From assembly GCA_020722725.1 (NCBI GenBank), contig DYKG01000020.1, positions 1 to 60,392 of the forward strand: a DNA stretch of 60,392 nucleotides. The letters run 5' to 3'. A model generated the notes under the pieces. It did not search any database. It had not been told where the DNA came from and worked only from the letters and a program-made list of their open reading frames with translations. The stretch is from Candidatus Methylomirabilis sp. (GTDB taxonomy: Bacteria; Muiribacteriota; Ozemobacteria; Ozemobacterales; Ozemobacteraceae). The translations under genes were made by a program, and so were the position numbers. This document shows, one piece after another, positions 41,472 to 55,594 of the stretch. Numbering within the stretch: position 1 is the first letter of the stretch; every line of letters starts with the position of its first letter.

Positions 41472-41500
41472 AAAATATCACAAAGCTGCCGCCTGTTCAA
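41472..41500 (-). promoter_or_regulatory. Sigma-70 promoter with downstream CIRCE
   Basis: Minus strand TTGAAC (41500-41495), a 17-base spacer and TATTTT (41477-41472). The CIRCE repeat follows directly. The -35 and spacer lie within the last codons and the stop of the methylase gene. Confidence 0.75.
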
Positions 41501-43151
41501 GAAAAAAATCGCATTCTTCGAGCAACTGCTTATATTGCCCCGATCCGAGATAGGCCTCACATACCAGAAGATTCAACTCTTGCCAGAACTCTTTGTATTC
41601 AGACGATTCACACTTCAACTTAGACAAAGCCTCGGCCAGAGCAGCGATGCGACTCTTTAAAATCGGCTCTGAATCTGGCAAAGGAACAGCTCTTACCTGC
41701 GAAACGGTTATGTGAAAACTGTGATAATGCCCACTGAACCAGGCATTGACCAGCAGACTGTTCAAAAGACCTGTCAGATAAGCCAAAGAACATTCCCTGG
41801 TTTTTCCTGTAATGAATGAAATTGAATTTTTCGGGAAAAAGCCGCCGTGGTCGTGAGCAGCCACCAGTCTTAATTTAAGCTTCTCGTTGCGAATATTCTG
41901 ATATAGAACTTTTTCACCGGCAAAAACCTTCTCATCACCGGCATAGGCCAGATGCGGGCCATAATCGATGAACTTTCCCTCCCAGTTTATATGAAATGGT
42001 GACAATTCCCGACCTTTAAGCACCTTTCGATGACGTGAAGACATGCATTGGTCGGTAACAAATCTTGAAACACCACCCTCACGCTTTAACGACTCCTGGA
42101 TCCCAACTCCAACCCTGCAGATTTCCCCGAGCGGCTTTGAATTTTGCGCCATCAAATCAAATATGTTTTTAAGTTTTTCGGGCACAATTGCCTGTCTTAG
42201 ACCCCGCCCGCTTTCAAAAATTTGTTGGTTCACCCAAAAATGATTATTCCAGCCTCGTTCAAGGTTATAGTTAACATGAAGAACCGTCTCATCAGAATTC
42301 AACGCCTGCATGTTACATAGATGCAAAACTGCCGGCAGAATGCCCGGTGCGCTTACAAAAAAACGCGCAGGTAATAGAAAAATATTCATAACCCGATGGC
42401 TGAAAACCAGTTTTCGTATAAGCCGGCATTGATGATTTACCAGCCATGTATGCGAAGTCAGCAGAATTAAATGCCCGCCAGGTTCAAGCATTTCGCATGA
42501 TCGCTCGATAAAAAAAGTATAAAGATCTTTTTCACCTTCAGAAGTTTTGTAGCGCGAGCGCAAAAAACTTTTCAATTTTTCACTTAAATTTACCTTATAA
42601 GGCGGGTTGCCAATAATTAGACTGAAGCGGGTTTTATCGTCTGCCCGCAGAAAATCTTCGCACCGCAGATGTGGCCAGCCATTGCCGGCAAACCGGCCAA
42701 GCAAACGCCCCAGACAAATCAACAAAGCCTGAGAATCAACGTCATAACCGTAAATTGCCGACAACCAGTCGACATCATTTTTCTTGATTGAAAGCTCTTC
42801 AGCAGCTGCAACCAGAAAACTGCCGTCGCCACATGCCGGGTCAAGAATTTTTCCATTCAAATTCCGGCCTGTTTCATGAATCAGTTTTCGGGCAAAAGTC
42901 TCGGGAGTATAATACTGACCTGTCTTGCGGCGTGCATTACGAATTCGGCTTTCAAGGTCGGGCAAATGCTCGACACCATTGTGCTTGACCGGAAAATTTC
43001 CGTCTTCAACCCTTTCAACCCAATTGAGAAGAAATTCCGGAGCCTGAAGCTGATGCAAAATATCAACCGGCCTGGCTGGCAACCCTTTTTCCAGCTTTAT
43101 CTCAAGCGTCTGTCTAAACCACTGAAACAAGCCTATCTCAGCTTTTTCCAT
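41478..43151 (-). CDS. Orphan N6-adenine DNA methyltransferase (Eco57I/TaqI-like)
   Basis: A 557-residue protein with the AdoMet site LDPACGDGSFLVAAAEE and the adenine-methylase catalytic motif GNPPYK. RKTGQYYTPETFA precedes the AdoMet motif as in this class. The C-terminal half (about 330-557) resembles the TaqI-type target-recognition region. No restriction nuclease domain or gene is adjacent, so it could be an orphan methylase, the methylase part of a split type II/IIG system, or a genome regulator. The ATG at 43151 follows an AAAAGAG site; TTG at 43184 is an alternative. Confidence 0.88.
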   Translation of the reverse strand: MEKAEIGLFQWFRQTLEIKLEKGLPARPVDILHQLQAPEFLLNWVERVEDGNFPVKHNGVEHLPDLESRIRNARRKTGQYYTPETFARKLIHETGRNLNGKILDPACGDGSFLVAAAEELSIKKNDVDWLSAIYGYDVDSQALLICLGRLLGRFAGNGWPHLRCEDFLRADDKTRFSLIIGNPPYKVNLSEKLKSFLRSRYKTSEGEKDLYTFFIERSCEMLEPGGHLILLTSHTWLVNHQCRLIRKLVFSHRVMNIFLLPARFFVSAPGILPAVLHLCNMQALNSDETVLHVNYNLERGWNNHFWVNQQIFESGRGLRQAIVPEKLKNIFDLMAQNSKPLGEICRVGVGIQESLKREGGVSRFVTDQCMSSRHRKVLKGRELSPFHINWEGKFIDYGPHLAYAGDEKVFAGEKVLYQNIRNEKLKLRLVAAHDHGGFFPKNSISFITGKTRECSLAYLTGLLNSLLVNAWFSGHYHSFHITVSQVRAVPLPDSEPILKSRIAALAEALSKLKCESSEYKEFWQELNLLVCEAYLGSGQYKQLLEECDFFLEQAAAL

Positions 43152-43237
43152 GCTCTTTTCATTAATCCTGTTTTTTTGCCGCAAAGGTTCCCATATTATA
43201 CCATTTATACTTAATTCGTTCGTGACACTACGATTTA

Positions 43238-43305: not shown

Positions 43306-43329
43306 TAAAAAGCGGACTAAAAAGCCCGC
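43306..43329 (-). terminator. Rho-independent terminator of the MutL/DUF6754 operon
   Basis: Minus-strand stem GCGGGCT/AGTCCGC (43329-43323 with 43318-43312, one G-U pair, 4-base loop) followed by a T-rich run at 43310-43306. It lies 31 bases after the wzz-like stop. Confidence 0.75.
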
Positions 43330-43359
43330 CTTTAATTTAAATTCAAAATAATGTTTAAA

Positions 43360-44586
43360 TCAGGGTTTGGCCTGTTCTTTGGCATCCTGTTCTTTGCGCC
43401 GACGGATGAATTCGATCAGAAACGCTGCAAACACACCTAGAACACCAGAACTCAGACCAGCCAGAATGACCATGATTGACCGGCGGGGTTTTGATTTAAC
43501 CTCAGACGGCCTGGGCTTGTCGATTACTTCAAACTGACTGCCTTCTTCTGCTTCTGCAATCTTGGCTATTTCATACTGCTCGGTCAGAACCCCGAACACT
43601 TTTTCCTTCACCTTGAGATTGCGTTGCAGCCTGATAAATTCCAGGGCAAGTTCTGGCATGCCGCTTAAAACCTTCTCGGTTTCGCCAATCTCTTTGCCAA
43701 GGGCTTCGAGTTTGGCTTCTTCAGAAACTTTTTTGCCTTCAAGTTTTACCAGTTCAGGCAGATTTCCCGATGATTTCAGAATGCTCTGCTGCATTTTCAA
43801 AGCAATACCGGCCTGCACCTTTTCCGATTCAAGAGTTGCAAGCTTTTCAATCAGGGCACTCGCCTGTTTTTCCATTGAATACATCTTCTTCGCATCCTGA
43901 AATACCTTGAATTCATTCTCAGCCACTTCAAGCTCGCGACTCACCTTTTCCAGCTGGCTTTCAACGAAAACCCGCTTTTCTTTCTGCGGACCTCTGGCAA
44001 AAACAGCCAGATACTCAAGATAAGCGGCGGCAATCTCGGCAGAAAGCTCAGACGACATGGTTTCGGCAGAAACGGTTATCAGACCGTCTTTGTCTTTTTC
44101 AATCGAAACGATCTTACCAACCAACTTTAGAATGTCGTCATATTTCACGTCAGGGTCAGGATCAGAGCCGACAATCGCCGGGTTGGTAGCAACGCCAAAC
44201 CGGCTGATAATTCGCTCGCTCATCGTGCGACTTTTCAAATAAGCCATCAGATATTCGGCAGAACCACCACCGCCAATACCGCCAATCAGGCCGGCCATTG
44301 GCAGCGATGAAAGTAACGAATTCATTCTTCCGCCGCTTGAATGAACGAAAATCGTGGCACTGGCCTTGAAATGGTTCGGCAGAGTAAGGCTGTAAATAGC
44401 AGTCAGAACAGCGACAACCAGCGGCATTACCACTACCAGCTTCCAATGCTTGACCAGCACACGAAACAGCTCAAAAAGATCGATTTCGTCTTCCTCAAGC
44501 CCCATCAGAATTTCGCGCTTGAGAAGTTCTTCTTTGACCTCTTTCTTTAACTGTTCAGGATTGATGTCGTTGTATTTTTCTGTCAT
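43360..44586 (-). CDS. Wzz/GNVR-type polysaccharide chain-length determinant
   Basis: A 408-residue protein with two membrane helices near the ends (about 50-70 and 378-398), a large periplasmic coiled-coil region and the Pro-rich segment DKPRPSEVKSKPRR before the second helix, the standard Wzz layout. It sets the length of O-antigen, capsule or similar polymers. No tyrosine-kinase domain or glycosyltransferase is adjacent. Its ATG overlaps the stop of the barrel-sandwich gene as TAATG, so it is the last, translationally coupled gene of the MutL/DUF6754 operon. Confidence 0.9.
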   Translation of the reverse strand: MTEKYNDINPEQLKKEVKEELLKREILMGLEEDEIDLFELFRVLVKHWKLVVVMPLVVAVLTAIYSLTLPNHFKASATIFVHSSGGRMNSLLSSLPMAGLIGGIGGGGSAEYLMAYLKSRTMSERIISRFGVATNPAIVGSDPDPDVKYDDILKLVGKIVSIEKDKDGLITVSAETMSSELSAEIAAAYLEYLAVFARGPQKEKRVFVESQLEKVSRELEVAENEFKVFQDAKKMYSMEKQASALIEKLATLESEKVQAGIALKMQQSILKSSGNLPELVKLEGKKVSEEAKLEALGKEIGETEKVLSGMPELALEFIRLQRNLKVKEKVFGVLTEQYEIAKIAEAEEGSQFEVIDKPRPSEVKSKPRRSIMVILAGLSSGVLGVFAAFLIEFIRRRKEQDAKEQAKP

Positions 44587-45713
44587 TAGTCTTCGATTAT
44601 TTCGACGTTAGCTCGGGGCAGAATCATGCGTTCGGCCTTTGAAAGAGTTTCGATTTCAACCACACGCACCCTGGCTTCAGTAGGAATTTTGGTCGGCTGT
44701 TCGGGCAGATTCACTACCTTGGCCACTTCACCAAAGTGGGGCTGGCGAATAATGCGAACCAGACTGCCGATTGTCATGCCCATATTGGCTGATTTGTCTG
44801 AATCTGAAAGTTTGCCACCTTCAATCGGAATTACCACTTCAGGCCTGATCACGCCAGCGCGAATCTGAGTTGCGCCATTGATCGATGCTTTTTTTCCAGC
44901 GCAATTTTTAAGCAGATCGAAGGTTTTCTGTGCCATGTTGATTTTGCCGAAACCTTCGGTTACCACCAGTGTGATGCCCTTGTCTTCGGTGCCGGTAATC
45001 GCCACGCCAAGATCGTAACCGAGAAATTCTTTCAGATCGTGGGCATCGTAACCACCAACAACTACGCCCTTTACTCCAAGCTCAACGGCTCGTTTAAGAG
45101 CAGCAGCCGTTACCAGAGAGCCACCGACCACAATTTTATTTTTATGCTCAATGGTAAGATTATCTTTATCAAGCACATCACTGGGCGATTTGGCGATCAT
45201 GACCAGCTGACCGATTACTTCTGGCCCGATGCCGAAGATACCCTGAATGAAAGTGGCTATCGTATCGACTTTCACCCCTTCTTCTTCGTAGATATTATCT
45301 ATGATACCATCCACATAAGCATGAACTTCTACCGGAATCGGCGGTTCGCGCAGAATTGCCTGACCGGTTACGTCAGAAAGGCTTTCTACGGTTCCGCTGA
45401 TCGGCGATTTAACCTGAGTTTTGAAAAACCCGAAGAACCCCGGGGTTTCAGCAATAATCTCGTCTTTGTTGAGTTTATCGCCCTCGGCTTTTTTAAGAAA
45501 CAGTTTGATTTCTTTCGGCTCACAACCGAGAATATTGGCAAGGTTAACCGGGTAAACGTTGCCCGGCAGATCGGTTGAGGCAACTACGGTTTCAGCAGTT
45601 ACGCGATCACCCTTTTTAACATGAACCACGCCCTTCATTGGAAGGCGGCGGTCTTTTTCTACCAGTGTTTTTGCTACGATTTTAAGTCCGGGAGTATAAG
45701 CAGCAGCAGCCAT
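44586..45713 (-). CDS. Barrel-sandwich (lipoyl-like) protein of the MutL/DUF6754 cluster
   Basis: A 375-residue cytoplasmic protein. The N-terminal half contains beta-rich motifs like biotinyl/lipoyl barrel-sandwich hybrids (GVVHVKKGDRV, VKSPISGTVESLSD, VHAYVDGIIDNI) but no lipoyl-Lys signature. The middle has an alternating alpha/beta stretch (AVELGVKGVVVGGYDAHDL), and the end looks KOW/SH3-like (VVNLPEQPTKIPTEARVRV). I do not recognise the family by name. It is 18 bases after the MutL-like stop and overlaps wzz by one codon edge (TAATG). Location suggests it binds the ATPase. Confidence 0.75.
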   Translation of the reverse strand: MAAAAYTPGLKIVAKTLVEKDRRLPMKGVVHVKKGDRVTAETVVASTDLPGNVYPVNLANILGCEPKEIKLFLKKAEGDKLNKDEIIAETPGFFGFFKTQVKSPISGTVESLSDVTGQAILREPPIPVEVHAYVDGIIDNIYEEEGVKVDTIATFIQGIFGIGPEVIGQLVMIAKSPSDVLDKDNLTIEHKNKIVVGGSLVTAAALKRAVELGVKGVVVGGYDAHDLKEFLGYDLGVAITGTEDKGITLVVTEGFGKINMAQKTFDLLKNCAGKKASINGATQIRAGVIRPEVVIPIEGGKLSDSDKSANMGMTIGSLVRIIRQPHFGEVAKVVNLPEQPTKIPTEARVRVVEIETLSKAERMILPRANVEIIED

Positions 45714-45731
45714 TTTCTAAAATCCTTTCTA

Positions 45732-47537
45732 TTACAGGCCCGGATATAGATCCATGGCTTTATACCAGGATTTAACCAGTTTTACGCGTTCAGAATTATC
45801 ACTCGGCAGAGTGAACGGGCGACCGCGGGTATCGAAAATCACCCCGACAACTCCACCATGAACCGTGCCTTCGAATTCTTTGCCATCGCCATTGCCCATG
45901 TCGAAGCCCCATTTCGGCTTGATAAAAACCTTGGCAGTCTGGCCCACCGGCAGCGGAACGACATTGAGCTCGCCACCCTTGCAGCTGATATTCTTTTTGC
46001 TGCCATCGGGCATGGTAAGAGTCGCCTCCATAACCGGTTCGCCCATTTTGGCTTTTCCAACCGGCGAAACACAAGTGCCCAGATAAATCAGACAGTCTTT
46101 TTCAAACACGCTCAGCGAGGCATCTTCATGAACCTTGGCCAGAACGCCAAGCTGTGGCATCATGAAAATCGAGTCTACGGTTAACTGAGTGATTCCTTCG
46201 GGCAAAAACGCATCGATCAGCATCATGGCCGTCTGCTGACGCCTTGGCGCATGGGAAAGAACACCACCAGAGCCGATCAGCATATCGAGATCGCGCAGGT
46301 TAACCAGAGTTTCGCCGGTCATCGACTGTTCAAAAACGTCGCCAATCGTTCTTTCCTGCTGAATTCCTTTCAGACCGACCGCCAGAGAGCGGTGCTGGTC
46401 AAAAGAAAGTCGCAGAGCCTCACGGGAACAGGCCTGCTCAACCATCAACTCTTCAATCAATGAAGGAATAGTAGTCGGCCTGATCATTTTATTTTTTACG
46501 CGGTTGCGCAGGTCGCGTTCATCCATTTCGAAGGGAACCCAGCGCATGATGTTTTCGAGACCAGCTTCGGCAAATACGTTACTGATCGAATAACTCATGC
46601 CATAGTTAGCCGAAACCGATTTATTGTAAATTCCACCAAATACACTGAAAACGTCGGTGGTTGCCCCACCAATGTCGGCACCAACAACGTTGATGCCCAT
46701 GCGTTTGGAAATAAGCTGCATAATGTCGCCTACCGCACCGGGAGTCGGCATGATATCTTCGTCTGTCAGCTCCATCAGACGTGGATAACCAGGGGCATGG
46801 CTCATTACGTGTTCGAGGAACAGCTGCTGAATCTTCTGCCTGGTGGGCATCAGATTCTCTTTTTCAAGACTGGGGCGCAGATTGTCGGTTATATCGAGAG
46901 CCACCTTGTCGGCAAGCCGATCTTTGATCAGCCCCTGAGCCTGGTTGTTACCGGCATAAAGAACCGGCAGCTGATAGCTGATGCCCAGACGGGCTTTCGG
47001 GTTGGCTGCCGCAATGATTTCAGCAAGCTCGGCAACGTGCGAGGTCGTGCCGCCATCAACGCCGCCCGACAAAAGAATCATATCGGGGCGAAGATGTCTG
47101 ATACGCTGAATCTTCTGATACGCCAGTCGGCCATCATTGGTCGCCAGAACGTCCATAACGATTGCGCCGGCACCAAGAGCAGCACGAGTTGCCGATTCGC
47201 CCGACATCGTTTTAACGACGCCGGTAACCATCATCTGCAGACCACCGCCCGCAGAGCTGGTTGAAACATATAAATCAACACCTTTGCCATTGGTAACCGG
47301 CTTGATGATTGCCTTGCCGTCATCGGTGAGAATCTGGCGGCCCGCCAGTTCCTGAACTTCAGCCACCGCATTGAGAACGCCCTGAGTAACATCTTCTACC
47401 GGGGCTTCAACCGTGGTTGGAGCTTCGCCGCGCACAATCAGCCTGAAAGCACCTTCACGCTTTTCGATCAAAATTGCCTTGGTAGTGGTACTACCACAAT
47501 CCGTAGCCAGGATACTTTGAATATCACTTTTGCTCAC
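45732..47537 (-). CDS. MutL-family ASKHA ATPase (annotated elsewhere as glutamate mutase L)
   Basis: About 601 residues. ASKHA (hsp70/actin) ATP-site motifs are present: ATDCGSTTTKAILIE near residue 12, GADIGGATTDVFSV near 286 and LIGSGGVLSH near 419. The whole matches the MutL family, named after a protein beside glutamate mutase in clostridia and related to reactivating factors. No glutamate mutase E or S gene is in the window, so the reactivation role is doubtful. I chose GTG at 47537, with GAAGGTGA five bases upstream, over GTG at 47546. It overlaps the 114-residue gene by 14 bases. Confidence 0.88.
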   Translation of the reverse strand: MSKSDIQSILATDCGSTTTKAILIEKREGAFRLIVRGEAPTTVEAPVEDVTQGVLNAVAEVQELAGRQILTDDGKAIIKPVTNGKGVDLYVSTSSAGGGLQMMVTGVVKTMSGESATRAALGAGAIVMDVLATNDGRLAYQKIQRIRHLRPDMILLSGGVDGGTTSHVAELAEIIAAANPKARLGISYQLPVLYAGNNQAQGLIKDRLADKVALDITDNLRPSLEKENLMPTRQKIQQLFLEHVMSHAPGYPRLMELTDEDIMPTPGAVGDIMQLISKRMGINVVGADIGGATTDVFSVFGGIYNKSVSANYGMSYSISNVFAEAGLENIMRWVPFEMDERDLRNRVKNKMIRPTTIPSLIEELMVEQACSREALRLSFDQHRSLAVGLKGIQQERTIGDVFEQSMTGETLVNLRDLDMLIGSGGVLSHAPRRQQTAMMLIDAFLPEGITQLTVDSIFMMPQLGVLAKVHEDASLSVFEKDCLIYLGTCVSPVGKAKMGEPVMEATLTMPDGSKKNISCKGGELNVVPLPVGQTAKVFIKPKWGFDMGNGDGKEFEGTVHGGVVGVIFDTRGRPFTLPSDNSERVKLVKSWYKAMDLYPGL

Positions 47538-47868
47538 GAGATTCACCTTCCTTAATGTCCTTTTCGGCTTTTTCCAGGTTTTCGATGGCCACGATCAGCT
47601 TTTCAATGCGATCACGGTCGCCGGCTACCGCCTGCATTTTTTCCATCTTAACCGGGTCAAATATCAGTTCTAACATGGGAGCAAATACGACCAGACTGCT
47701 GTAACCAATGAACGACAGCGGCTTGGCCATTTCCAGAGCCATGACCGCAGGCACGCTCATACCTCGACGATGCACTGCATCAGCAAGCTTATCGATGAAT
47801 TCATCGAGTTCTTCGTCGGTAAAGCGCGAGTTGTTCTCGCTGCCTTTCGGTATTGTCCACATGCCCAC
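47524..47868 (-). CDS. Small amphipathic protein of the MutL/DUF6754 cluster
   Basis: A 114-residue protein: an acidic helical start (DEELDEFIDKLADAV), one hydrophobic segment (about 50-70, FIGYSSLVVFAPMLELIF) and a charged helical tail (RDRIEKLIVAIENLEKAEKD). Its look is of a small membrane-attached adaptor. I know no named family. The start is GTG at 47868 with AGGAG nine bases upstream. It overlaps the MutL-like gene, so it may link the ATPase to the membrane parts. Confidence 0.7.
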   Translation of the reverse strand: MGMWTIPKGSENNSRFTDEELDEFIDKLADAVHRRGMSVPAVMALEMAKPLSFIGYSSLVVFAPMLELIFDPVKMEKMQAVAGDRDRIEKLIVAIENLEKAEKDIKEGESREQK

Positions 47869-47887
47869 GGTCAGAGGTCTCCTGATT

Positions 47888-48550
47888 TTATATTATATGC
47901 AGCCAGTCTGAAAGCAGAAACTGGAAGCGGCCGATCAACAGAGAGATACGACCCATGACGGTTGCACCAAACGCGGCACCGAAACTGAGCATCAGATACC
48001 AGATGCCGACTCTTGCAAGGTTACCGTAAACCGGCCCACGATGTTCAGTTGAAAAGAAGAAATAAAACAGGCAGGCAACCGAACCAACCACCAGCACCAG
48101 ATTTGAGAAGCTCTGGAAATAGTCGCCGGCAACTGCCAGCGGGCGAATCGCCTTGGCAACCTGAGGAATAAGATACTGCTGAGTTGAATAAACGATAGCC
48201 AGACCAGTCGAAACACCCATAACGAAAGAAACGGTGAATCGGCTAACCCACGAATAGTTTGCGCTCAGTCGAAACATCATCATGATACCCAGAATTCCGG
48301 GAATGATGAGCGACCAATCAGCAGGCGTCTGAGCTGCTGCGCCAGAAGCAAACATGGTTGGGAAGAGCTTTGACAGCAGGTTTGGTTTAAGAACCTGGTG
48401 AAAAGATATCATCGAGAAGTAGTAACCTGCCGAAACTCCGACAAACAGATGTTCAGCAAAGCGATAGAAGGGGTTATCCTTGATCAGAAAGCTGAAACAG
48501 CAAAGAGTGATTAACGCTCCAACCCATACAGATATTGTTAATGTTGTCAT
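47888..48550 (-). CDS. Polytopic membrane protein A of the MutL/DUF6754 cluster
   Basis: A 220-residue protein with about six membrane helices (for example SVWVGALITLCCFSFLI, IIPGILGIMMMFRL, FSNLVLVVGSVACLFYFF). No catalytic or transporter motif stands out. AAGGAGA precedes the ATG at 48550. It lies 19 bases upstream of the small amphipathic protein and 12 bases after the bitopic protein, within the operon. Confidence 0.75.
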   Translation of the reverse strand: MTTLTISVWVGALITLCCFSFLIKDNPFYRFAEHLFVGVSAGYYFSMISFHQVLKPNLLSKLFPTMFASGAAAQTPADWSLIIPGILGIMMMFRLSANYSWVSRFTVSFVMGVSTGLAIVYSTQQYLIPQVAKAIRPLAVAGDYFQSFSNLVLVVGSVACLFYFFFSTEHRGPVYGNLARVGIWYLMLSFGAAFGATVMGRISLLIGRFQFLLSDWLHII

Positions 48551-48562
48551 GTTTTCGTCTCC

Positions 48563-49465
48563 TTATGCTTTCTTGCCGGTTTTTCTCTGCTCAGCAATGT
48601 AAGCGAGGTTACCGATCACGATGAAAAGCATGATTACCAGATGCGAGAAAGACTGGGGCGCCATACCTTCACGGCCACGACCCATATAATCAACCAGTTT
48701 TTCATATTCCGCCGCGCCGGGAAGACCACCGGTCATTCCGAGCAACTGACCAGTCTGCAGATAGGTCACAAACCTCGGAATATTTACCGAAGTACAACCA
48801 GCGGCCATCGGACGCTTATGATCCCCGGCAACACTGATGAAAGACTCGATTCCACCGGTTCCGGCGGTGAAACTTACGATTATTCCCACATCACTCATGG
48901 CAAACTTTCGGCCATCAGGATTCTGGAAAATCGGCATATCTTTGGTTGAGTTTCCTTCACGGTCTGCCGGATAAGGACCCATAAAATCGCTGCACAGGGC
49001 TTTTATATGAATTACTGCGCCCGGCTTGTAACCAAGGTTAACATAATCACGACCGCGTTCGAGCTTTGCCGGAGCACCTGCTGCAATCTTGCCTTCAGCT
49101 TTGAACTTGTCGTATGTCTGTTCATAAATCTGGGTCGCCGAGGCCAGTGCAGCTTCGGCCATTTCGCCACCAAGCGGCCAGTTGCCGCCACACATCGGTT
49201 TCAGGTTGTTTCTGAACATGTGCAGCAGAATGGCGATGGCGGAAGGGCCAAGTTCCGGTTCTGATGCCGGATCATAATCGAAAGAAAGGAAACATCGGCT
49301 TCCTTCCGGCAATTTTTCTTCGACAAAACTGTGCAGGCCGGTTACCGCTTTTCCAGGAACAACCGGTATGTCAATTTTAAAGATCATCGGCAAGGCAACG
49401 CCAAGCGCGACGAACAGGAATACCCAGCGGCGATCGAGACTTTTGAGTTTGATAAAAATATCCAT
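48563..49465 (-). CDS. Bitopic extracytoplasmic protein of the MutL/DUF6754 cluster
   Basis: A 300-residue protein with one helix near the N-terminus (about 14-30), a 240-residue extracytoplasmic or cytoplasmic domain and one helix near the C-terminus (LVIMLFIVIGNLAYI). The domain has a Gly-rich stretch (VSFTAGTGGIESFISVAG) and three cysteines, with no enzyme motif I recognise. AAGGGGGA precedes the ATG at 49465. It is 11 bases after the 286-residue membrane gene. Confidence 0.75.
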   Translation of the reverse strand: MDIFIKLKSLDRRWVFLFVALGVALPMIFKIDIPVVPGKAVTGLHSFVEEKLPEGSRCFLSFDYDPASEPELGPSAIAILLHMFRNNLKPMCGGNWPLGGEMAEAALASATQIYEQTYDKFKAEGKIAAGAPAKLERGRDYVNLGYKPGAVIHIKALCSDFMGPYPADREGNSTKDMPIFQNPDGRKFAMSDVGIIVSFTAGTGGIESFISVAGDHKRPMAAGCTSVNIPRFVTYLQTGQLLGMTGGLPGAAEYEKLVDYMGRGREGMAPQSFSHLVIMLFIVIGNLAYIAEQRKTGKKA

Positions 49466-49476
49466 TTTCTTCCCCC

Positions 49477-50337
49477 TTAGCCTTCGCCACCCAGGTGCGA
49501 GCGTTCAACACCAAGGATAATCTTGAGCGATGCGGAAATGTAACCTAGCATTGCGCCTACCAGAATCGCGCTCTGAGCCGCTGAACTCGGGTAAGACATG
49601 ATCCATTCCTTGACCGCAGAAACATCGATGAACGGCCCGATTACCGGAATCATGCGCAGATAGTTGCCAATCGGCACGTTGCCGAGCATTACGATAAAGG
49701 CAGCACCCATCAGCAGACCCGCTTCCTTCGACTTGATGCGGAAAGCGCGGAAAGAGGCCGATGCAACGAAGAAAGCCAGCAGCGAAAACATCGTTGCCTG
49801 TGCATTCTTGAATACGCCGATAAAAAGAATCTGCTGGGCATCGAAAATCAGTGCCATCATCCGGCCTTTGAGCTTGCCGTAAGAGGCTTTGAATTTAGTT
49901 TTGGTCGCTTCATCTTCAACCATGATGTTCTGAGTTCCACCTTCACCATCGGTGACTTCTACGATGGTCACCCACTGTGAAGACATATTGTCGTCAGAAT
50001 AAAGGTAATACTTTTCGCCGACCATAACCGGCTTTTCGAACATCGGCCAGCCACCCGAAAGCAATCCAAGAACCGACATGGTCAGAAAGCCGATTACCAG
50101 AGCCATGCTGTAGCCATAACCGTCAGCCTTGCGCGAAATTTTGCTGAGGTTGATATTCAGCAGGCTGATTGCACCAAGCAGCATGGTGAAAGACATAATG
50201 ATTTGAATCCATTTTGGAAAAGTGTCTTCGAGCGCTTTGATACCCGGAAAAGCAGGGCCGCTGAAAAACGCCAGAATCATGATGAGACCGGTACAAAAAG
50301 TGATTATGAGCGGTAAAGTTCGTTTTACAAATAACAT
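49477..50337 (-). CDS. Polytopic membrane protein B of the MutL/DUF6754 cluster
   Basis: A 286-residue protein with three N-terminal membrane helices, a soluble loop of about 80 residues (SH3-like beta pattern: KYYLYSDDNMSSQWVTIVEV) and about three further helices at the C-terminus. No motif I recognise. GAGG precedes the ATG at 50337 by eight bases. The gene lies 10 bases after the DUF6754 stop in the same operon. Confidence 0.75.
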   Translation of the reverse strand: MLFVKRTLPLIITFCTGLIMILAFFSGPAFPGIKALEDTFPKWIQIIMSFTMLLGAISLLNINLSKISRKADGYGYSMALVIGFLTMSVLGLLSGGWPMFEKPVMVGEKYYLYSDDNMSSQWVTIVEVTDGEGGTQNIMVEDEATKTKFKASYGKLKGRMMALIFDAQQILFIGVFKNAQATMFSLLAFFVASASFRAFRIKSKEAGLLMGAAFIVMLGNVPIGNYLRMIPVIGPFIDVSAVKEWIMSYPSSAAQSAILVGAMLGYISASLKIILGVERSHLGGEG

Positions 50338-50347
50338 TGCGTTAACC

Positions 50348-51661
50348 TCACTTAAACAGCTTCATATAGCTGTCGGCAATTGTCTTGATACCATGTTCGA
50401 CCCCAAAATCGGTCTGAGCAATGGTGATCAATATGGTTCCGACAACGATGAAGAAAATTATGATGATTTTACTGATGTCCTGACCTTTAAGAGAACCCAC
50501 TTCTTTTGGGTTCTTTGAAAGATAAGCAGAAGCAGCAAAAAGTTCTTCGCCGATCAGCGTGTAATCGCAGGCGGCAACGAAGAACGGAATCTGTGAGGGT
50601 TCGGCAGTTCCGGCAATCTGAATCGCACCGATCGAGTTACCGGTTTCAGCCAGAATCAGGGATTCGGCGTAGAAAGTGCCGAGATAAAAACAGGCAGCCG
50701 GCTTATCGCGCATCATGATACCACCAACGCCGGCAACATAACCGAACTGGTCGTCGGTAAGGTAGTTGATGCGGTCAGGGCGGAAAGCGTCGGGGCGCCC
50801 CTTTTCAAGGTAAGCCTGTTTTACGATTTCATGGGCAACCGACATGACGAAAGATCTGGTCATCGGCGCAAAAAGCGGAGTGTCATATTCGGCAGTCTTC
50901 TTGGCAACATGGCCAAGAATGGTAACGCCGGCGATCGTCTGAATGTCATCCATGTCCATGATGCCGGGAATGTAAAGAACCCCGCGGCCCATTTCGGTGG
51001 CACGACCAACTGCGTCTTCAAGAGCTGAAAGACCGCTGATTCTTCTGATGAACATTTCTTTTCCGCGTTGGGCATGGAAAGTGAAATACGACACGAACCC
51101 CAGCAGACAGACAATGATGACCAGAACATTGAGGCGGTCAACATCCATGTAGTATGCCAGGCCTTTTTTTTCTTCGGGCTTTGTTTCAGTAGCAGCAGGA
51201 GCGGAAGCCGAAGCGGGATCGACCGCATTTGCGGCAGTTGCGGCAGGTTCAGCAGCCTTTTTTTCAGTAACTGCTGCAGCGGCTGGTTCGTTTGTCGAAG
51301 CAGCTGCCGGTTCTGGCTGAGCTACTGGCTCAGCGGCAACCGGAGCGGCGGGAGTCGGCGTTACCGGCTCGGCGACTGTTTCACTGACTGGTTCAGCAGC
51401 GGGTTGATCCTGAACTGCGGCGGCCGGAGCAACTTCTGTTGCTGCAGCTGTCGGCTCTGCAGGGGCTGCCGGCACTTCGGGTGCGATAGCAGCAGGAGCA
51501 GCGGTTTCAGTAACGACGGGTTCTGAAACGGCAGTCGGTTCAGACGGGCTGGCAGCGGGAATTTCTCCCTGTTGCGCCACCAGGGACAAAGCAGATACCA
51601 GACACAGGATCACTGCCAATACCGGCAGCAGCATCCTGGGCGGTCGCCAAGTAACGCTCAT
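50348..51661 (-). CDS. DUF6754 membrane protein with Ala/Pro-rich linker
   Basis: A 437-residue protein: a signal-like N-terminal helix, a 130-residue Ala/Pro/Glu linker, a membrane helix (about 198-222), a conserved 190-residue core, and a final helix. The core matches what I recall of DUF6754: GLSALEDAVGRATEMGRGV, YIPGIMDMDDIQT, LAETGNSIGAIQIAGT, FVAACDYTLIGEELFAAS. I choose ATG at 51661, with GGAGGT six bases upstream, because the ORF before it is not protein-like. It opens the operon behind a near-consensus promoter. Confidence 0.85.
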   Translation of the reverse strand: MSVTWRPPRMLLPVLAVILCLVSALSLVAQQGEIPAASPSEPTAVSEPVVTETAAPAAIAPEVPAAPAEPTAAATEVAPAAAVQDQPAAEPVSETVAEPVTPTPAAPVAAEPVAQPEPAAASTNEPAAAAVTEKKAAEPAATAANAVDPASASAPAATETKPEEKKGLAYYMDVDRLNVLVIIVCLLGFVSYFTFHAQRGKEMFIRRISGLSALEDAVGRATEMGRGVLYIPGIMDMDDIQTIAGVTILGHVAKKTAEYDTPLFAPMTRSFVMSVAHEIVKQAYLEKGRPDAFRPDRINYLTDDQFGYVAGVGGIMMRDKPAACFYLGTFYAESLILAETGNSIGAIQIAGTAEPSQIPFFVAACDYTLIGEELFAASAYLSKNPKEVGSLKGQDISKIIIIFFIVVGTILITIAQTDFGVEHGIKTIADSYMKLFK

Positions 51662-51703: not shown

Positions 51704-51732
51704 ATTATAACTGAGCCAAAACTCTAAGTCAA
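51704..51732 (-). promoter_or_regulatory. Strong sigma-70 promoter of the MutL/DUF6754/wzz operon
   Basis: Minus strand TTGACT (51732-51727), a 17-base spacer and a perfect TATAAT (51709-51704), 42 bases before the ATG at 51661. It is the best-scoring promoter I found in the window. Confidence 0.85.
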
Positions 51733-51935: not shown

Positions 51936-52931
51936 TTATTTCGAATGATGCATCCAGCACCAGACCTGATGCCCGGGGTGAAGCTCAACCACAGGCGGGC
52001 GCTCTCGGCAACGCTCATGAACCTTTTTGCAAACGCGTTGATAGCAGCAGCCATCCGGGTTGGCTTCTTTTTTCGCTTGCGGGACCTCACCTGCCGCCTC
52101 GGCACCTTCCCGCAAAAATCTCGCCGAAGCCAGTAGATCGGCGGTATAAGGATGAGCCGCATCTCTCAAAAGACAGTCAGCGGGCAGTTCTTCAACCAGG
52201 TTGCCACGGTACAGCAGAATTATTCGATCAGAAATCTGCCTGACCACTGCAACGTCATGGGAAATAAAAATCATCGAAAGCCTTCGCTCACTGCGCAAAT
52301 GGCACAGTAATTCAAGTATCTGCGCCTGCACTGAAACATCGAGAGCCGAAACCGCTTCGTCGGCAATTATCAATTCCGGGTTCAAAACCATAGCTCGACA
52401 GATACCGATGCGTTGACGCTGGCCTCCACTGAACTCGGCCGGGTATCTCTCTAGGCAATCGGCACTCAGGCCGACTTCTGCAAGCGTCTTAACCATCAAT
52501 TGTTCCGATTCTGAACCATAAAGGCCGTGTATCTTTAAAGGCTCGGCGACGATCTGCCTGACCGTCATTCTCGGATCAAGCGATCCGTAAGGATCTTGAA
52601 AAATCATCTGAAGACGGCGCAACATCTGCAACCGGGCCATTTGTCCATCGGAATAAGCCTGGAAAATATCACTGCCACCAAGTTTTGCTTCGCCCGAGTC
52701 GGCTTTGTAAATGCCCATCAGAACCCTTGCCAGCGTCGATTTTCCCGACCCGCTTTCGCCAAGCACGCCGAGGGTCTCGCCTCTTTCTACCCTGAAATTC
52801 AGCTTGTCAAGTGCCTGTATCTGTTCCGGGGGCTCTTTTTTAAACCAGCTGATAAGACTGTTGTCTATTATGAACTTTTTCGACAATCCCTGAACTTCCA
52901 GGAGAATATTGTTTTTGCCAGTTTCAGCCAT
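51936..52931 (-). CDS. Oligopeptide/dipeptide ABC transporter ATPase (DppF/OppF type)
   Basis: A 331-residue ABC ATPase. Walker A is GESGSGKST (58-66), the signature is FSGGQRQRIG, and Walker B is LIIADEAVSALD. The Cys-rich C-terminal peptide-transporter extension is present (CCYQRVCKKVHERCRERPP). It powers peptide import. It starts eight bases inside the DppD-type gene. No permease gene accompanies it here. Confidence 0.93.
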   Translation of the reverse strand: MAETGKNNILLEVQGLSKKFIIDNSLISWFKKEPPEQIQALDKLNFRVERGETLGVLGESGSGKSTLARVLMGIYKADSGEAKLGGSDIFQAYSDGQMARLQMLRRLQMIFQDPYGSLDPRMTVRQIVAEPLKIHGLYGSESEQLMVKTLAEVGLSADCLERYPAEFSGGQRQRIGICRAMVLNPELIIADEAVSALDVSVQAQILELLCHLRSERRLSMIFISHDVAVVRQISDRIILLYRGNLVEELPADCLLRDAAHPYTADLLASARFLREGAEAAGEVPQAKKEANPDGCCYQRVCKKVHERCRERPPVVELHPGHQVWCWMHHSK

Positions 52932-53913
52932 CTGCCTGCTCCTGGTTCACCGGAAAATAGCAGCTGACCAGACGATTAATGCCTGCCTGCCTCAACTTGG
53001 GCCGGTTTTCGAGGCATTCAGGGCGACAGCGATTACAGCGATCTGAATAAACACAACCCACCGGCTTTCGGTCTGGCATCGGCAGATTCCCCGCAATCGG
53101 GTGCGGCAAAATCTTCTCAGGAACCAGCCTCGGCAATGCTCCGATCAGGTCTCGAGTATAAGGATGAAAAGGCTTATGCAGCAGTTCTGAAGCAGTGCCA
53201 ATTTCGACAAGGTTACCCGCATAAAGTATCGCCAGCTGATCAGAAATCGCCCGCAAAACCCCAAGATCATGACTGATAAAAATCATGCTCCGCCGGCCAT
53301 CACTGAGATTTTGTCGAAGCTCCCTCAGCAGCTGAACCTGTAAAGCAGCATCAATTGCCGTCGTCGGCTCATCGGCAATAACCAAATCCGGCTTCAATGC
53401 CAGACCAATCGCAATCATTGCCCTTTGCCGCATTCCGCCACTTAGCTGGTGGGGATAAGAATCACAAAATTTTTCAGGATCACTAAAACCAGCTGCCACC
53501 AGAGCATTGCGAACCTGAGCATTAACCTCAGCCTTGCCAATACCCTTATGGTGAGCATAAATCACTTCGGAAACCTGATCGAAAAGCGTCATTAAGGGGT
53601 TCATCGCCGTCATCGGCTCCTGAAAGACAAAACCGATTTGCTTGCCTCTAATTTTGTTCAGCTGCGATTCTGAAAATTCCGCAAGATTTTCACCATTGAA
53701 ATGAATACCCCCGGTCTTTTTAATTATCGACCGATGCGGAATCAGGCCGGCAATGCTCATTGCCAGCACCGATTTGCCTGAACCCGATTCACCGGCCACT
53801 CCCAGACAACTGCCGTTGGCAAGCTCAATCGATATATGCTCTAAAACAGGCAAAGCTCTGTTATCGCTCCCCTTGAGGGTTAAAGAAAAATCTTCTATTT
53901 TCAGCAAGTTCAA
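52924..53913 (-). CDS. Oligopeptide/dipeptide ABC transporter ATPase (DppD/OppD type)
   Basis: A 329-residue ABC ATPase. Walker A is GESGSGKS (41-48), signature [14 protein letters not shown], Walker [13 protein letters not shown], and a Cys-rich C-terminal extension. The start codon is TTG at 53913; a second TTG at 53907 has a better-spaced AGG. It lies 13 bases after the substrate-binding lipoprotein stop, and overlaps the DppF-type gene. Confidence 0.93.
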
Positions 53914-53926
53914 ATACCTGCTTAAA

Positions 53927-55594
53927 TCAAAGCTTTGAATCAGCCGGGCCGAACAGAGCTTTCCAGTTTTTCACATCGTTCCACACCGGGCTGGCCGCCC
54001 GGGCACTTCCTGATACATCATGCATAATTCCAACATCAAAGGGCTTGAAAAGAAATGCCATCGGCTTTTCATCTCGCAGGAAATTCTGCACAACCGCAAG
54101 ATTTTTTGTTTTACTTTCGGTATTTTCATCGCCCGGCATCATCGAATCGAGCTTTTCCAGGGCAACATCAAGCTTGGGATTTGAAAGACCTGAAAAATTC
54201 AATGCCGTCTGATTGTCTGATTTTGAATGCAGCATATCAACCAGATTCCCCGCTTCAGGGAACCTGAAGCTGACCAGTGCCGTATCGAAATCGCCTTTTT
54301 TCAGATGCTGTGCAACCATATCTGACCAGCTGACCGGCTTAAGCGCCAGAAGCACACCGGCACGCCGGCAGTCTTCGACAAAACGCTCGGCAACTGCGCG
54401 GCGCAACAAATTATCGTCATTGAAAACCACCGACAATTCAAGTTTTTGCCCGTTCTGATCGCGGATTCCGTCACCGTCGCTGTCTTTCCAGCCCAGACTG
54501 TCGAGCAGGTCAAGAGCATTGGAGAAGCGAGCCGTAGCTTCGGTAATAACATTGCTGCCACTGGCAAAGGGTGAATCGTATAGAGTTATTCCCGCATAGG
54601 GGATTTCATTTTCAACTTTTTTTCGATCAGCCAGCAGATCGAGAGCATGGCGCATTCTTTTGTCGGCCAGCAAAGGCTTTTTGCCATTGAACAGCCAGGT
54701 CAGGCACGCCGGATTTGGGTATCTGACAAAAAAAAGATTGTCGACCTTCATGGTTTCGAGCTGCTCGGCAACCATTGAGGGCAGACTGATCCAGTCGAGC
54801 TTCTTCGCCCTGAAATCGGTGACCAGCTGCTGATAATCGAAATAGCTGCAAACCAGCACCTGAGTGCGGGTTGCTGTGTCGAAAAAGCTCTCAAAAGGTG
54901 CCAGGTGTATATAGCGCCCTTTTTCACGAGCCACAATTCGATAAGGCCCCAGCCCCACCGGTTGTTCAGAATAAAGCGGCCGGCTTTCAGAAGCAACACC
55001 AGCCTTCTCAACCCGGGCTGCATCAACCGTCTCATTTTTCAGAATATGAGAAGGCAAAATGCCTATAGTCAGCAGATCTAACAGCTTACGCGAGTTTTGG
55101 GTAAAAGTGATTAAAGTCTGCTGTGGGCGGCCAAAAGAGCTTATACTCCCAACCCCTTTGAGAAGATCGGCATATGGGCTGTTATTTTCGGGCTTTCTGA
55201 TCTGTTCAAAAGTATATTCGAGATCTTTTGGATCAAACGCGGTGCCGTCATGCCATTTCAAACCGCTCTTCCAGACCGCCTGAAGAACAATGCTGCCTGA
55301 ACCTTCCGTGATACTGTATGAATCGAAAAGATAAGGCACGAAACTGCCGTCATCGAGCTTGCGCAAAGGTGATGCATGCACGAAATTATTCAGCATCTGC
55401 CCATGTTCCGTTTCGATATGGGCAATCGGGTTAAGCGACATGGGATCGCCGTAAACGCCAAGTCTCAGCCAGCCATTTCCAGATTTAAGAACCTCTTCAA
55501 GTTCTGCTGGAAGCGTATCTTTTTTGCCACAACCCACAGAAAAAATCAGGGTTGAGATCAACAGTAAAATAAAGATGGATTTGCTTGATTTCAT
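53927..55594 (-). CDS. Extracellular solute-binding lipoprotein (SBP_bac_5, peptide-binding)
   Basis: A 555-residue protein of the DppA/OppA family. The N-terminus has a signal sequence ending FSVGCGKK, a slightly irregular lipobox with Cys near residue 22. Family signature regions are present: KSGLKWHDGTAFDPKDLEYTF-type and a late LDMLHSKS region. It probably binds oligopeptides outside the inner membrane for the two ATPases encoded just downstream. The permeases are not in the window. The ATG at 55594 is 15 bases past the O-antigen ligase stop. Confidence 0.9.
   Translation of the reverse strand: MKSSKSIFILLLISTLIFSVGCGKKDTLPAELEEVLKSGNGWLRLGVYGDPMSLNPIAHIETEHGQMLNNFVHASPLRKLDDGSFVPYLFDSYSITEGSGSIVLQAVWKSGLKWHDGTAFDPKDLEYTFEQIRKPENNSPYADLLKGVGSISSFGRPQQTLITFTQNSRKLLDLLTIGILPSHILKNETVDAARVEKAGVASESRPLYSEQPVGLGPYRIVAREKGRYIHLAPFESFFDTATRTQVLVCSYFDYQQLVTDFRAKKLDWISLPSMVAEQLETMKVDNLFFVRYPNPACLTWLFNGKKPLLADKRMRHALDLLADRKKVENEIPYAGITLYDSPFASGSNVITEATARFSNALDLLDSLGWKDSDGDGIRDQNGQKLELSVVFNDDNLLRRAVAERFVEDCRRAGVLLALKPVSWSDMVAQHLKKGDFDTALVSFRFPEAGNLVDMLHSKSDNQTALNFSGLSNPKLDVALEKLDSMMPGDENTESKTKNLAVVQNFLRDEKPMAFLFKPFDVGIMHDVSGSARAASPVWNDVKNWKALFGPADSKL

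Follow-up and report, generated by a model that had tools for sequence, protein, structure and literature searches.

The eight-gene operon p1-p8 on the 60,392-base contig DYKG01000020.1 (analysed as a whole and called the window below) encodes seven proteins, p1-p7, that are almost certainly parts of one conserved system. The set appears to be a cell-envelope machine of a kind not described before, and the original prediction of an undescribed membrane system held up in that the set is conserved across phyla and no published function was found. p1-p4 are four predicted inner-membrane proteins that would likely form one complex. The ATPase p6 and its barrel-sandwich partner p7 may act as an ATP-driven activase, that is, a dedicated chaperone for priming or repair of the p1-p4 complex, and one p6-p7 pair would serve all diverged p1-p4 complexes of a cell. 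While the genes are strongly linked as a set, their biochemical role is inferred, and a shared activase is a plausible proposal that we hold tentatively, somewhat short of an even chance. The genome comprises 3.6 Mb, and the closest named homologues of the window belong to Candidatus Riflebacteria. The operon consists of eight back-to-back open reading frames (ORFs), which run from 51661 to 43360; protein lengths are in amino acids (aa), and TM denotes a transmembrane segment.

50348..51661, minus strand: p1, 437 aa, DUF6754 protein
49477..50337, minus strand: p2, 286 aa, polytopic membrane protein with six hydrophobic segments, no family
48563..49465, minus strand: p3, 300 aa, TM, predicted periplasmic Rossmann-type domain, TM, no family
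47888..48550, minus strand: p4, 220 aa, polytopic membrane protein with five hydrophobic segments, no family
47524..47868, minus strand: p5, 114 aa, small protein with one hydrophobic stretch, no family
45732..47546, minus strand: p6, 604 aa, MutL-type ASKHA ATPase with C-terminal extension
44586..45713, minus strand: p7, 375 aa, barrel-sandwich hybrid with alpha/beta middle and KOW-like end
43360..44586, minus strand: p8, 408 aa, Wzz/PCP chain-length protein

The ORFs thus lie where the original prediction had placed eight adjacent minus-strand genes with small gaps or overlaps; the gaps from p1 to p8 are 10, 11, 12, 19, -23, 18, and -1 bases. Its part list, in which a DUF6754 protein, a MutL-type ATPase, and a barrel-sandwich protein stand beside one small, one bitopic, and two polytopic proteins, is likewise supported as a conserved membrane system. 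p1 matches DUF6754 (PF20539) with an E value of 5.7e-120 (399.7 bits, Pfam cut-off 27), p6 matches MutL (PF13941; E 3.3e-118, 395.8 bits, cut-off 27), and p8 matches Wzz (PF02706; E 2.1e-15, 57.2 bits, cut-off 25.5). No Pfam family was found above cut-off for p2, p3, p4, and p5, and none of p1-p8 reached any NCBIfam cut-off. According to hydropathy and Lys/Arg counts, p1 has a hydrophobic start (aa 10-28), an Ala/Pro linker, a TM (aa 177-195), an alpha/beta domain, and a second TM (aa 396-414). In many other phyla, the position of the linker is taken by an FN3 domain. The part of p1 with the FN3 domain or the linker would lie outside, and the DUF6754 alpha/beta domain is predicted to be cytoplasmic. 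p2 and p4 would span the membrane, and p3 is predicted to hold its Rossmann-type domain on the outer, periplasmic side. The AlphaFold2 model of p3 has a mean predicted local distance difference test score (pLDDT) of 95.4 and a predicted template modelling score of 0.91. p1 and p3, and likewise p2 and p4, had been suspected by eye to be homologous; profile comparisons yielded short, TM-type, or insignificant matches only.

The barrel-sandwich protein raises the question of a redox ion pump of the Rnf/Nqr type. p7 of this genome matches RnfC_N (PF13375) with an E value of 1.4e-4 and 22.3 bits, under the cut-off of 25.6, and weak matches to RnfC_N and NQRA_N were obtained for 10 of 19 and 5 of 19 p7 members, respectively. 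Rnf and Nqr also have a similar mix of polytopic and bitopic subunits. However, their membrane subunits are characterized by conserved Cys ligands and a flavinylation motif, and columns with more than 60 percent Cys were absent from p2-p4 and occurred once in p1, while a flavinylation-like motif was found in none of 150 p1, p2, p3, or p4 proteins. A pump of this type is already disfavoured and hardly credible.

The conservation of the gene order was quantified with loci of relatives. A ten-sequence alignment of the DUF6754 domain was scanned against one genome per bacterial or archaeal species, and the best 80 of at least 560 confirmed relatives gave 79 loci. Another 60 stretches were added, of which 59 came from p1-bearing genomes of other phyla, drawn from 119 positives; this resulted in 139 loci, and removal of four duplicates left a non-redundant set of 135. 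All loci were selected for holding p1, with the exception of L164 (L and G numbers denote loci and genomes), which was selected for the p7 module, and the order rates are conditional on p1. The 79 loci carry the labels Riflebacteria, Zixiibacteriota, Fermentibacteria, Coatesbacteria, WOR-3/Stahlbacteria, Cloacimonadota, Latescibacterota, Acidobacteriota, Caldithrix, Gemmatimonadota, Planctomycetota, Eisenbacteria, Neomarinimicrobiota, Muiribacteriota, and a few others, and such phylum labels of metagenome bins may be wrong. With the proteins of this genome as queries, p2 was found in 75, p3 in 74, p4 in 74, p5 in 25, p6 in 36, p7 in 37, and p8 in 4 of these 79 loci, many of which lie on short contigs.

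In the non-redundant set, p1 was directly followed by p2-p3-p4 on the same strand for 125 of the 147 p1 copies that have 4.5 kb or more downstream, and the median gaps within this series were 11, -1, and -1 bases. In 44 of 60 cases p7 came next after p6, in 38 of 60 p5 preceded p6, and in 52 of 62 p1 came next after p7. Among the 59 stretches outside this phylum, an uninterrupted p1-p2-p3-p4 series was present in 42 of 44 family-level groups, and both p6 and p7 were found in the p1 stretch in 17 of the 44. The order is therefore not confined to this genome: because it recurs in loci of many phyla, it is beyond chance. p1-p4 form a cassette that is able to stand apart from p5-p6-p7. Strongly diverged sets were also seen at L186 and L187 (G007 and G014, one Riflebacteria genus), with E values of 3e-81 and 4e-88 for p1 and of 5e-65 and 5e-75 for p7.

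The presence of p1 and p7 was compared across 381 genomes. p1 was found in 119 and p7 in 114 of them; 113 had both, six p1 only, one p7 only, and 261 neither, so that seven genomes were discordant. Outside this phylum, 85 genomes had both, five p1 only, none p7 only, and 252 neither (Fisher P 4.6e-75; the test treats genomes as independent, which they are not, but as many as 62 families contribute positives). In 56 related genomes, p1 and p3 were present in the identical 36; p4 was present in 37, the additional one being a piece at a contig edge in G001, and p7 was present in 36, including G001 and missing G019. A MutL protein above cut-off was found in 37 of these 56, a count that includes further MutL proteins besides the system type. 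The co-occurrence of p1 and p7 persists when the genes are unlinked: p7 lies on a different contig from p1 in G042, G045, and G047, and in 14 hand-picked named genomes the p1 locus lacked p7 in 12, yet p7 was present somewhere in all 14.

p6 and p7 also occur in fused form. At L102, p6 and a complete p7 share one frame directly before p1 (E 3.7e-261 for p6 and 7.7e-174 for p7; the frame is cut at the start of the locus). Separate p6-p7 fused paralogues of 879-1034 residues were verified in L165-L168, L174, and L176, with differing surroundings, and their p7 part ends before the KOW-like tail. That the ATPase and the barrel-sandwich protein occur fused supports p6 and p7 as a functional pair. 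MutL-barrel-sandwich fusions of the same size range were also noted at L171-L176, away from p1-p4 and lacking common neighbours; they are possibly a sister system.

The envelope complex would act in an ATP-driven manner, and p6, judged from its sequence, retains the ATPase motifs: phosphate-1 at aa 16, phosphate-2 at aa 291, and adenosine at aa 425. Among 56 p6 proteins, phosphate-1 was retained in 53, phosphate-2 in all 56, and GSGG in 46. In a tree, 55 system members formed their own clade (support 0.947) that was separate from nine further MutL proteins (0.999), and the two divergent system members from L186 and L187 fell outside the clade of the other 55. p6 scored 207, 200.5, and 144.6 bits with the GlmL/Or-4 models NF040745, NF040744, and TIGR01319, below their cut-offs of 475, 600, and 204. 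The second MutL protein of this genome is short and encoded inside a D-ornithine 4,5-aminomutase cluster together with two racemase-type genes (L177:3430-10508; G000:C84). Seven matches to the B12-binding domain PF02310 were found in the genome, one of them beside this second MutL on C84; none of the seven is on the contig of the operon, and p6 is not beside a B12-dependent mutase. An excerpt of one report describes MutL/GlmL as a chaperone in glutamate mutase reactivation and cites work on diol dehydratase reactivase (PMC4682846), and an excerpt of another lists diol dehydratase reactivase among the structural relatives of the ASKHA fold (PMC3475010). As other MutL proteins serve B12 mutases, the simplest carry-over would be a dedicated activase for membrane complexes.

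The idea that one activase is shared rests on the copy numbers and on the evolution of the cassettes. Two or three p1-p4 cassettes were present in 24 of the 118 non-redundant loci with an intact cassette. In these tandem loci, the nearest relative was within the same locus for 2/56 p1, 0/56 p2, 0/56 p3, and 1/56 p4 proteins. The tree distances of p1-p4 were correlated for all six gene pairs (0.72-0.86); when cassettes were swapped within loci, the mean correlations fell to 0.44-0.55, and for each pair the observed value was above all 200 shuffles. The identities between paralogous cassettes of one locus and between random loci were, respectively, 55.2 and 55.2 percent for p1, 44.9 and 43.6 percent for p2, 37.6 and 38.3 percent for p3, and 44.9 and 43.4 percent for p4. 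Because the tree distances correlate and paralogues differ as random loci do, the four genes p1-p4 evolve together as one unit, and the subtypes are ancient. At least two p1 matches were found in 48 of the 119 p1 genomes, with up to at least six per genome and at least 210 in all, one of which (G016) is weak. Among the matches listed, G350 was the only one of the 114 p7 genomes with two full-length stand-alone p7 proteins; other additional p7 matches were gene pieces, fused frames, or weak partial hits. When all p7 candidates were scored in the 56 related genomes, none had two full-length stand-alone p7 proteins. As p1 is multi-copy and stand-alone p7 nearly always single, a single ATPase module appears to pair with many cassettes.

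Clustering of the genes merely for regulation, with no common complex, would be consistent with a set that is known here from genes alone. It is very improbable, however, given the co-occurrence of unlinked genes, the p6-p7 fusions, and the cassette-wise co-evolution.

Within the proposed activase mechanism, the variation among the four membrane proteins suggests a division of labour. As p1 is the most conserved of the four between paralogous cassettes and common to all subtypes, its cytoplasmic domain would be the likely site where p6-p7 acts. p3 is the least conserved and, being the most variable, may set what the complex binds. Several observations weigh against this proposal. p7 is missing in the six p1-bearing genomes of the 381 scanned, and in G388 it is present only as pieces in different frames. 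G045 has p1, p3, p4, and p7 but no MutL match, and thus p6 may be dispensable there. The copy numbers were taken from the best six p1 and the best five p7 candidates per genome. The AlphaFold2 model of p1 is just moderate (pLDDT 74.5), and the most conserved stretch of p1 is the least confident one. Profile comparison gave no sequence homology that joins p1 with p3 or p2 with p4. Finally, p6-p7 may be a motor and not an activase.

The last point leads to the main rival, which would be more novel than an activase: an ATP-driven transporter with p6-p7 as the motor inside, p3 as the binding domain outside, p2 and p4 as the path, and the cassettes as substrate-specific variants. A single stand-alone p7 together with up to at least six p1 matches per genome would fit such an arrangement, as would the gradient of conservation from p1 to p3. 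Moreover, conserved residues of p3 favour the strand-end crest (27/40 positions there versus 72/210, with a crest window chosen by the analyst). However, no recurrent substrate pathway was seen among the operonic neighbours surveyed, no P-loop ABC ATPase is part of it, and we know of no ASKHA ATPase that powers transport. Taken together, we regard a transporter as unlikely. Equally unlikely in our view is a new class of ATP-dependent envelope machine in more than 60 bacterial families, in which several anciently diverged four-subunit complexes of a cell, each with a binding domain of its own on the outside, would all be powered by one ASKHA ATPase and its barrel-sandwich partner; if true, p6 would be the first ASKHA ATPase known to drive transport across membranes.

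The original prediction had counted the Wzz protein p8 as a member of the set, and this did not withstand the comparison: Wzz adjoins the set in just four of the 139 loci, all labelled Riflebacteria. As far as these loci show, it is a lineage-specific Riflebacteria neighbour outside the conserved set. A role in surface-polysaccharide export or chain-length control would be suggested by Wzz directly after p7 in the four Riflebacteria loci and in this operon, but no Wzz was found in the remaining 135 of the 139 loci, of which some are short, and the sugar-nucleotide-type families NTP_transferase and Epimerase matched just two each of 128 operonic neighbours. With Wzz adjoining the set in so few loci, such a role is not supported; as a core role it is already contradicted, and we consider it extremely unlikely.

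In the neighbour survey, 128 of 247 operonic neighbours were run against Pfam and 153 families were matched; among the matches listed, no family was found in more than three of the 128. This result bears on a transmembrane sensor or structural scaffold, in which the outside parts of p1 and p3 would bind an envelope ligand, the cytoplasmic domain of p1 would relay the state, and p6-p7 would reset it. The FN3 domain on p1 of many phyla and the Rossmann-type domain outside on p3 are in line with it, as are the varied, housekeeping-like surroundings. Nevertheless, the survey revealed no recurrent regulator, and two conserved polytopic subunits exceed what a sensor needs, which makes a sensor or scaffold decidedly unlikely.

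Some neighbours recur in particular lineages. TonB/ExbB/ExbD genes in the vicinity of Fermentibacteria, WOR-3, and some Zixibacteria loci, and glycine-cleavage genes close to other loci, were judged to be lineage synteny and not parts. A TonB-dependent receptor, ExbB, ExbD, or TonB was noted near the cassette at L033, L034, L037, L042, L047, L049, and L084, and ExbB also at L082, L087, and L096. Glycine-cleavage P-protein genes lie just upstream of p5 at L161:10719-13654, L031-L047 (Fermentibacteria), L140, L160, and L162; these neighbours occur in Fermentibacteria and in the family groups f77 and f181, the latter defined by sequence clustering only. A link to the outer membrane via Omp85 was uninformative, as 63 of 65 p1-positive genomes had Omp85, and so did 179 of the 189 genomes overall. 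Upstream of p5, up to 18 loci encode a protein of about 148 aa with two hydrophobic stretches (L100:5662-6123, L091:7458-7901, L161:10246-10716), which may be an eighth part that this operon lacks. Its match to Pfam bPH_6 was obtained in L100 only; seven other members had no match, and a PH-like tail was recognized by eye only. No defence match was obtained for the set.

The borders of the operon carry two signals, both recognized by consensus only:

51704..51732, minus strand: promoter-like site upstream of p1, TTGACT-17-TATAAT, 11/12 consensus matches
43308..43333, minus strand: terminator-like hairpin after p8, 11-pair stem and T-rich tail

A promoter-like site is present where the original prediction had placed its near-consensus promoter, and it is the best of 12 found, a number not clearly above the 8.6 +/- 2.9 sites expected in shuffled sequence. 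The hairpin exists as well, at 43333-43308 and thus a few bases from the predicted 43306-43329; its stem is the longest of 13 found, with 10.7 +/- 3.2 expected in shuffles. Because comparable numbers of sites arise in shuffled sequence, only the rank and the position of the two signals are notable. On the same strand, a lone 568 aa protein at 41478-43184, 3' of the operon, resembles a DNA methyltransferase (NPPY motif, by eye), and genes of the oligopeptide-ABC type (two ATPases and one solute-binding protein, by eye) lie directly upstream at 51936-55594.

DUF6754 was found in none of 14 control genomes of well-known bacteria, and a literature search, which did not extend to subscription literature, yielded no publication on DUF6754 or on a tie between DUF6754 and p2-p7. 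If our interpretation is true, the absence of the set from the well-known bacteria checked explains why a core envelope system of such wide distribution has gone without a name. DUF6754 and five other protein families would gain a common context, and a chaperone-type ATPase would be joined to membrane complexes. The envelope role of several parallel complexes that model bacteria lack would then become a testable question. As the planctomycete record Maioricimonas rarisocia carries a DUF6754 protein (p1 alone was seen of its locus), tests in a cultured relative may be possible.

The set resembles several known systems in part. With MutL/GlmL/Or-4 (PF13941; NF040745, NF040744), p6 shares the PF13941 domain and the ASKHA motifs, but it has 604 aa in contrast to the open frames of 445-530 aa of the short forms, its partners are membrane proteins and p7, and it belongs to a separate clade. 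The N-terminus of p7 is weakly similar to the barrel-sandwich hybrid at the N-terminus of RnfC/NqrA, under the curated cut-off, whereas p1-p4 are devoid of redox motifs. p8 is a Wzz/PCP chain-length protein, but one outside the conserved set. p1 is a member of DUF6754 (PF20539), a family that itself has no assigned function. In ECF-type transporters, one energising module serves many membrane parts, and the set is similar in that one such module would be common to several membrane cassettes. In contrast to them, however, the ATPase is of the ASKHA type and not of the ABC type, with no ABC_tran match in p1-p8, and it is combined with four co-evolving membrane subunits.

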